Below are positions 27,684-30,103 of a DNA stretch of 64,000 nt, piece by piece. Numbering within the stretch: position 1 is the first letter of the stretch; each line of letters begins with the position of its first letter. Under the pieces are notes generated by a model, which worked only from the letters and a program-made list of their open reading frames with translations, was not told the DNA's origin and searched no databases. Source of the stretch: Cardiobacteriaceae bacterium TAE3-ERU3 (GTDB taxonomy: Bacteria > Pseudomonadota > Gammaproteobacteria > Cardiobacteriales > Cardiobacteriaceae); NCBI GenBank assembly GCA_019218315.1, contig JAHUUI010000002.1, positions 372,001 to 436,000 on the forward strand, written 5' to 3'. A program made the translations under genes and the position numbers.

Positions 27684-29858
27684 TTAGCTCCTGTTATATT
27701 TTGGTTTAAGGGAAACGATACTGCCCGGAACAATCACAGCCCCCAGGCGCCTCTGTAAATCTTTAACGACGGGATGAGCGTGCATAGCTGCTTCTGCGCG
27801 GTTGCGCTCATCTATAATCGCTTGCTCTTGTAATATGGCCGGCGTTTCGTGCGCTGCATCCGCCACACAAACCACCTCACATTTAGCCTGTGTATAAGCT
27901 GTTAATGACTCTGACAGCAACGCAATAGTCTCATCTTCACCGGCAAGCATCATCGCACCATCAGCCAAACCAAGGGTTAACTGCGGTGGATGCCAACCAA
28001 GCACCACGCTATGCTCTGCAATGACGCCGGCTGCACCTGGCAAATCCAATATTGTCGTCAGCTGTGCCCAAGCATAAGGATCTTTCGCACAGTCATCCAG
28101 CCCGATACTTACTTCCTCAATGCGCTGATTATTGCTATTCGCTTCAGGTTCTGCGTCACTGAGTACAGCGTGATCTCTCTCACTCTTTACTGACGAATAT
28201 TCTGTTGGTTCTTCTTGAGCTTGCACCTGCTCAGGTACTGGCTCAATATTCTCATCAGGCGAAGCATTTTCTACTTTTGCTGAAGCCATTTCTTCTGGCG
28301 CTACGTTCTCGTCATTGGGCACAAAATTACTCACCGCAGAACGATCAGCATCTTGCTGCTTGGTAAGATTCGTTGTGACCACTGGCGACTTGGTTTCCAT
28401 CGCGTTGTCACTATCTATTGCTTTGACAGGCTCGCTATCAGCCTCATTTTCTTCGCCATGATCAAAGCTTGTAGATGGCTCAGGCTCATGGGACACCTCA
28501 GTATCGCCATAATTTGGCGCACTAACCCACGGAGGTGGCAATTCATCATCTGAAATTGGCGGTGCTGCGGCTTGTACTTGATTAACCTCATTGCCACTCT
28601 GCACAGCGTTGTGCACTACCGGTTGTAATTCATCTGTTTTTTTTTCTGCCGAGCTTGCTTCGTCGCTATCTTTTTCTTTAAGCATCGCCTCAAGATCATC
28701 AAGCGTCTCTACCTGCTTGCCCGGTGAAGCAGGTGCAACAGGAGGAATCTCACGCAACGTTGCCGGATCAGCTGTCGGTAAAAGTGGGCGCAAAGCAATC
28801 ATGCGCAGTAAGATCATTTCCACAGCCAAGCGTACATCAGGCTGGTAAGCAAGGCTTTGCCAGCCATCAGTTGCAATCTGATACCACAGCTGCACCAGCT
28901 CCACGGGCAGCCGCTCTGCTAGTAGTTTGATCTCATCATCAATTTCTCCACTAAAACGTTCCGCATCGAGCTGCGCGATCGTCACTTCCTGCAGCTGATA
29001 AAGCAAGCGCTTGAGTAAATCTTGATAGTCAGGAGCAAACTCATCAAGCGTATGCAGTACGCCACGTAAAGCTGGTGCGTCTGCATCAGCCAAAGTACCC
29101 ATGATGGCTCGAAGTTGCTGTGCAGGTACTGCACCAAGCAATTGTGCGACGTCTTTACTGCTGATAGCTCCTCGCCCATATGCAATGGCTTGGTCGAGCA
29201 AGCTCAAACTATCACGCATACTGCCTGAGCCAGCCTCTGCAAGCAGTTTTAATCCGTCTTGCTCATACTCAATATTGTCGTGGTCAAGAATTGCCTGCAA
29301 ATGCGCAACGATCTGCGCACTGGTCATGTTTTTTAAATGAAATTGTAAGCAACGAGACAGCACCGTAGCAGGCATTTTTTGCGGATCTGTCGTCGCGAGA
29401 ATAAATTTGACGTGTTTAGGTGGCTCTTCCAGCGTTTTAAGCAGTGCATTAAAGCTGCTGCGTGAAAACATGTGCACTTCATCAATCAGATAAACTTTAT
29501 AGCGCCCTTTAACCGGTGCATAAGGGACGTTATCAAGCAGCTCACGAGTATCATCAACGCCGGTTCTCGACGCTGCATCCACCTCAATTAAATCGGGAAA
29601 GCGGCCTTGATCAATCTCACGACAATGTTCGCACTCACCGCAAGGCTCAGCACTGACGCCATTAGTCAAGCAATTTAGGGATTTAGCAAAAATGCGTGCA
29701 ATAGTTGTTTTGCCGACACCTCGGGTACCGGTAAACAGATATGCGTGGTGGATACGGTCGTGATCAAGTGCATAGGTCAATGCCTGCGTAACATGCTGCT
29801 GACCAACCAGTTCATGAAAATTTTTCGGCCGCCACTTGCGTGCTAATACTTGATACAT
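27684..29858 (-). CDS. dnaX: DnaX, DNA polymerase III subunits tau/gamma
   Basis: 724 aa tau. AAA+ domain: Walker A GTRGVGKTTIA (about 44-54), zinc site CLTNGVSAEPCGECEHC, Walker B LIDEVHMFS, sensor 1 FILATTDPQ and SRC box LSRCLQF. Clamp-loader domain III follows to about residue 370. An acidic, low-complexity linker (about 385-590) then leads to a C-terminal alpha-polymerase-binding region. A nine-A tract at codons 405-408 could yield a truncated gamma form (separate entry). Tau tethers core polymerases in the replisome. Confidence 0.96.
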   Translation of the reverse strand: MYQVLARKWRPKNFHELVGQQHVTQALTYALDHDRIHHAYLFTGTRGVGKTTIARIFAKSLNCLTNGVSAEPCGECEHCREIDQGRFPDLIEVDAASRTGVDDTRELLDNVPYAPVKGRYKVYLIDEVHMFSRSSFNALLKTLEEPPKHVKFILATTDPQKMPATVLSRCLQFHLKNMTSAQIVAHLQAILDHDNIEYEQDGLKLLAEAGSGSMRDSLSLLDQAIAYGRGAISSKDVAQLLGAVPAQQLRAIMGTLADADAPALRGVLHTLDEFAPDYQDLLKRLLYQLQEVTIAQLDAERFSGEIDDEIKLLAERLPVELVQLWYQIATDGWQSLAYQPDVRLAVEMILLRMIALRPLLPTADPATLREIPPVAPASPGKQVETLDDLEAMLKEKDSDEASSAEKKTDELQPVVHNAVQSGNEVNQVQAAAPPISDDELPPPWVSAPNYGDTEVSHEPEPSTSFDHGEENEADSEPVKAIDSDNAMETKSPVVTTNLTKQQDADRSAVSNFVPNDENVAPEEMASAKVENASPDENIEPVPEQVQAQEEPTEYSSVKSERDHAVLSDAEPEANSNNQRIEEVSIGLDDCAKDPYAWAQLTTILDLPGAAGVIAEHSVVLGWHPPQLTLGLADGAMMLAGEDETIALLSESLTAYTQAKCEVVCVADAAHETPAILQEQAIIDERNRAEAAMHAHPVVKDLQRRLGAVIVPGSIVSLKPKYNRS
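28630..28646 (-). promoter_or_regulatory. Nine-A slippage tract in dnaX, candidate gamma-subunit frameshift site
   Basis: The coding strand reads GCA GAA AAA AAA ACA GAT, i.e. A9 at 28645-28637. A -1 shift (or one extra A in the transcript) after codon 407 gives AAC AGA TGA, so translation stops two codons later, leaving a 409-residue product that retains domains I-III. E. coli gamma is 431 residues and made in the same way. A small stem (TGCACA / TGTGCA) lies about 20 bases downstream of the tract. I see no Shine-Dalgarno-like stimulator upstream. Confidence 0.6.
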
Positions 29859-29993: not shown

Positions 29994-30103
29994 AGAGGCC
30001 TGCACCAGCATTCTTCGGCGCCCAGTTAAACCGCTACCGTTGCTTCCTTCCGGACCTGGCGGGGTTCGCGGCGCACCGTCGCGAAGCGCCAATGCAGACC
30101 AGA
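29994..30103 (-). ncRNA. ffs: 4.5S signal recognition particle RNA
   Basis: The minus strand contains the SRP domain IV core GCCAGGTCCGGAAGGAAGCA (GGTC / GGAAGGAAGCA internal loops). The flanks pair along the hairpin: GGTCTGCA on the 5' side with TGCAGGCC on the 3' side. Length is about 110 nt. A clear sigma-70 promoter lies upstream and a T-rich end (CTCTCTTTT) follows. Ends are estimated to within a few bases. The RNA works with Ffh to target membrane proteins. It sits about 135 bases upstream of dnaX. Confidence 0.93.

Follow-up and report, generated by a model that had tools for sequence, protein, structure and literature searches.

A nine-A tract in dnaX of a Cardiobacteriaceae genome as a probable transcriptional slippage site, of a kind found across Gammaproteobacteria

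The window, a 64,000-nt stretch of a Cardiobacteriaceae genome, contains a dnaX gene with a run of nine A's on its coding strand, which is probably a transcriptional slippage site of the Thermus type that makes a gamma subunit. The support for this reading is higher for the class of A9 sites in gammaproteobacterial dnaX genes than for the site in the window. On balance we favor the wider view that dnaX of Gammaproteobacteria has switched repeatedly between transcript slippage at A9–A10, ribosomal shifting at A_AAA_AAG and neither of the two, with a tract that turns over fast and is selected for gamma rather than inherited. The window would then be one case.

The A9 Tract and Its Predicted Products

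The dnaX gene encodes full-length tau of 724 aa (79.4 kDa) in a single open frame. The features discussed below are, in window coordinates:

27684–29858, minus strand: dnaX (tau subunit of DNA polymerase III; a short gamma product is predicted), from the open frame and Pfam clamp-loader domains
29169–29858, minus strand: domains I–II (AAA+ ATPase and lid; PF13177, PF22608), kept in both products
28776–29162, minus strand: DnaX domain III, residues 233–361 (PF12169, E 1.4e-10), kept in both products
28637–28645, minus strand: A9 tract, codons 405–408 (gAA AAA AAA AcA), proposed transcriptional slippage site, from the sequence
28630–28632, minus strand: TGA, stop of the −1 frame (transcripts A10, A7, A13), from translated length variants; product 408–410 aa
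28616–28618, minus strand: TAG, stop of the +1 frame (transcripts A8, A11), from the sequence and translated length variants; product 413–414 aa
27726–28088, minus strand: domain V (alpha-binding), residues 591–711 (PF12170, E 1.1e-5, slightly under the curated cut-off)

The coding strand reads GCA GAA AAA AAA ACA GAT GAA over codons 404–410, and the run, seen as T9 on the plus strand, lies where a sequence-only reading of this DNA had placed it. It includes an in-frame A_AAA_AAA followed by AC and starts 130 nt past domain III. The same reading had described a stop two codons into the −1 frame, and translation of length variants confirmed this: one added A (A10) leads to AAC AGA TGA and a product of 409 aa (45.6 kDa). 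It had not described the stop in the +1 frame. Losing one A or gaining two gives CAG ATG AAT TAC AAC CGG TAG, in which the stop comes six codons on. Together the off-frame products would measure 408–414 aa, or ∼45–46 kDa. According to Pfam they would keep domains I–III and lose the C-terminal part with domain V (from ∼591), so the earlier claim that the short protein ends after the clamp-loader domains holds.

In the mechanism that we propose, RNA polymerase would add or drop A's on the T9 template, giving dnaX mRNAs with 8, 9, 10, 11 or more A's. Full-length tau would be translated from mRNAs whose tract has 9 (or 12). All other lengths would meet a stop 2 or 6 codons on, depending on the off-frame entered, and would yield a gamma-like protein of the above size with the clamp-loader domains but without domain V. 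The tract, its phase, the two stops and the domain boundaries are read directly from the sequence; slippage in the window's organism, its rate and the use of gamma are inferred.

Homopolymers can also mutate by replication slippage, and the tract could then be a phase-variable DNA repeat that toggles dnaX between tau and a truncated form in the population. Tau is essential in E. coli. We regard this explanation as most improbable, as losing the C-terminal part of tau is expected to be severely harmful and the sequenced genome has the in-frame tract length.

An Rfam search of the dnaX region found no frameshift element. Its sole match was a bacterial small SRP RNA (RF00169, 62 bits) at 29999–30095 of the minus strand, just upstream of dnaX and on the same strand.

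Off-Frame Stops Gather at Runs of Nine A's

For every A run in the tails of the surveyed dnaX genes, we determined how many codons on the first stop comes in either off-frame. Both stops lay within 8 codons at 33/141 runs of A5, 14/64 of A6, 6/27 of A7 and 3/13 of A8, compared with 24/28 runs of A9 and 7/8 of A10 or more (Fisher p 2e-13). In other words, A5–A8 runs show the pattern in 23% of cases, which is background (14–23% at random positions in dnaX tails), and A9–A10 runs in 86%. The cut-offs of eight codons and, further below, six codons were picked after the first data; raising the cut-off to eleven leaves the result unchanged. With one vote per genus, which partly corrects for kinship, both stops were close in 14/17 (binomial p 5e-7).

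Nearby stops in both off-frames might gather at any A9. This idea was ruled out with A9 runs located in other genes, taken from the same genomes or similar ones: both stops were close in 2/15 (p 1.5e-6 against dnaX), so a run of nine does not by itself bring the stops with it. Slippage by bacterial RNA polymerase is known to be efficient at nine bases (PMC5009743; PMC1088944). From a ribosome one would expect no such sharp distinction between A8 and A9, nor would it have any use for a +1 stop after a −1 shift. The placement of stops in both frames at dnaX A9 runs looks like the result of selection, and the class-wide pattern is not a neutral one.

A9 Genes and A_AAA_AAG Genes Differ

The main mechanistic alternative is −1 frameshifting by the ribosome, programmed at the in-frame A_AAA_AAA, a weaker heptamer than that of E. 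coli, ending at the TGA. The heptamer and the close −1 stop are present and would allow some ribosomal shifting. We compared the A9 genes with dnaX genes that have A_AAA_AAG sites and no A9 (n = 12). In the latter the −1 stop is close (median 2.5 codons) and the +1 stop is at a median of 11.5 codons, against 2 codons in the A9 genes (p 9e-5). The RNA downstream is more structured at A_AAA_AAG sites than in A9 genes (mean z −1.39 against −0.17, p 4e-4), and Shine-Dalgarno (SD)-like elements precede 4/12 of the former and 2/36 of the latter.

In each of these respects the site in the window resembles the A9 class: stops are close in both frames, an SD-like element is missing and the folding is ordinary. 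No GGAG, AGGA or GAGG occurs in the 40 nt upstream of its A9, folding downstream does not go beyond shuffles (z 0.08 over 106 nt and −0.64 over the next 50 nt), and the nearest hairpin begins ∼21 nt after the run. The slip codon also lacks AAG. Moreover, a −1 ribosomal shift needs no close +1 stop, yet A9 genes typically have one, and A8 runs do not show the pattern of both stops although most of them contain an in-frame heptamer too. Two further observations speak for the ribosome: the genome has only tRNA-Lys(UUU), which is an E. coli-like condition, and a relative in the same family has an E. coli-like site (see below). Taking both sides into account, we consider ribosomal frameshifting quite unlikely as the explanation of the window's tract and transcriptional slippage the better reading.

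One A9 gene, L096, looks ribosomal, with an in-frame AAG, a far +1 stop and structured RNA, and the two classes are therefore not cleanly separated by run length alone. Another tail (L178 in genome G098, dnaX nt 1197–1461) holds A_AAA_AAG together with two A8 runs and may be intermediate between the two ways of making gamma.

The Single Site and Chance

An exact pattern search of both strands of the 2.41-Mb genome gave 539 A/T runs of exactly seven, 103 of exactly eight and 8 of nine; none longer than nine were seen. The ratio falls from 0.19 (seven to eight) to 0.08 (eight to nine), and although the numbers are small, this steeper drop fits the avoidance of nine-base runs described in PMC1088944. 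Besides dnaX, the runs of nine comprise three of sense-strand A in coding genes, one of T in a gene and three that are apparently intergenic. The three other sense A9 runs lie in a pilin-like gene, an acyltransferase-like gene (first codons) and an AAA ATPase gene, and at none of them do the stops of both off-frames come within 8 codons.

The tract could also be neutral, a Lys-rich, fast-evolving linker having chanced on GAA AAA AAA ACA, with any slippage being noise. Lysine in this dnaX is encoded by 24 AAA and 6 AAG codons, and in 28% of synonymous shuffles of the gene the tail acquires a run of nine or more A's. When both off-frame stops within 6 codons are demanded as well, the fraction is 5.6%. 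The window's A9 taken alone thus exceeds chance weakly; it is suggestive, not decisive, and does not reach significance as a single site. The weight of the case rests on the comparative pattern. The absence of the run from the congener (see below) also favors neutrality. Against it stand the scarcity of A9 relative to A8 in the genome, the two near stops in dnaX that other A9 runs do not have, and the class-wide pattern. We find a neutral origin unlikely.

Long A Runs in dnaX Across the Class

In all, 195 dnaX genes were analyzed, drawn from relatives, from an even class-wide draw (several of these genomes being metagenome bins) and from two families whose GC-rich dnaX genes contain A9. A run of at least nine A's past domain III was found in 36 of them, from 17 genera. 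Among the first 168 genes, 30 had such a run in the tail, against 9.7 expected from synonymous shuffling or 3.4 from codon shuffling, expectations that treat the genes as independent; the N-terminal part had none. The even draw alone gave 11/120 against an expected 3.9 or 2.4.

On a FastTree tree of the N-terminal domain, in which many branches are weakly supported, the trait needs at least 17 changes. This is evidence for repeated gain or loss of the transcript-slippage route in Gammaproteobacteria, insofar as the tracts mark that route. The tract also persists in GC-rich dnaX genes (65–71% GC). Two genes of one genus at 70–71% GC (L134 and L223, genomes G141 and G199) have both kept A9 and a −1 stop two codons on, built from different codons (ACA CCT GAC against ACG ATT GAA). 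In the 2.8 Mb of genome G141 there are only five A9/T9 runs, one of them in dnaX.

Close Relatives and tRNA-Lys Genes

The genome's neighbors place the window in Cardiobacteriaceae. Relatives were sampled as one genome per species, and conservation was read across species. The sequence-only reading had looked to relatives for conservation of the run, and within the genus this was not borne out. The only congener, G001 (83% identical in the N-terminal part, with a rearranged linker), has no A run in its dnaX linker and no other slippery heptamer among the types scanned. In the sister genus, dnaX of G004 carries A9, followed by off-frame stops at 3 and 1 codons, and that of G003 carries A8. Cardiobacterium hominis, also of the sister genus (L002 / L037), has A_AAA_AAG at dnaX nt 1407 with a −1 stop one codon on. 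These three sites are all closer to domain V than the window's tract. Cardiobacterium hominis thus has an E. coli-like site within the window's own family; the fold downstream of it is ordinary.

In the wider order, A9 or A10 just past domain III occurs in two genera, g12 (nine genomes) and g11 (two genomes). All six sampled species of Oceanospirillum carry A9–A10 at this place.

The Thermus-like route proposed by the sequence-only reading was strengthened in part, by the stops in both frames, by the lack of an SD-like element and of structure, and by the threshold in the class; the congener without the run and the non-significant single site weigh against it.

In the genome, tRNA-Lys(UUU) is encoded by two genes; tRNA-Lys(CUU) was not found among the tRNAs detected and typed. 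For Thermus it has been argued that a second lysine tRNA works against slippage by the ribosome, and this fails here as the reason for A9 over A6G.

In Rappaport israeli (L003 / L043; G011:C7:81087–82297) the dnaX frame breaks near codon 285, in domain III. There is no A run at the break, which is either a sequencing error or a true frameshift.

Comparison With Known Systems

Transcriptional slippage in dnaX of Thermus thermophilus (Larsen et al., 2000) is described in PMC5009743 and PMC1088944. Both genes encode tau in one frame, carry a sense A9 after the clamp-loader domains, have close stops in both off-frames and give a short gamma, which in our case is predicted. They differ in that Thermus has two kinds of tRNA-Lys and the window's gammaproteobacterium one. 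Furthermore, slippage at the window's site is predicted from sequence, and its run is absent from the one congener. The −1 ribosomal frameshift of E. coli (A_AAA_AAG) concerns the same gene and the same end product, with a −1 stop near an A-rich slip site. In contrast to that site, the window's has no AAG, no upstream SD-like element and no nearby stem-loop, and its +1 stop is also close.

Slippage of the Thermus type in dnaX is already known; less expected is its frequent recurrence, as we read it, in Gammaproteobacteria beside the E. coli route. A literature search limited to open papers found no prior report of recurring A9-type dnaX in this class. Opinions on the cellular importance of gamma have long diverged (PMC5009743). 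Should unrelated lineages repeatedly construct and retain slip sites for it by different physical means, this would argue independently for the usefulness of a truncated DnaX. Functional slippage that yields a shorter product has been considered hard to predict by comparative analysis (PMC1088944). The test for stops in two frames, combined with the threshold of nine A's, offers a way to predict it and might be used on other genes.

A different layout is known from GeneTack (PMC3711429), in which dnaX with A10 in two overlapping frames, for example in Chlorobi, is classed as programmed transcriptional realignment. There tau needs a slip, whereas in the window's dnaX tau is the zero-frame product. 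One gammaproteobacterial gene of our survey (L119; G167:C167) reads GAA AAA AAA AGC CTG TAA from dnaX nt 1121 onward, placing a zero-frame stop 2 codons past A9. The assembly is fragmented and an indel error is possible. The −1 frame is open for ∼198 codons, so that tau would need a slip, and in this respect L119 shares the reversed layout of the GeneTack genes.
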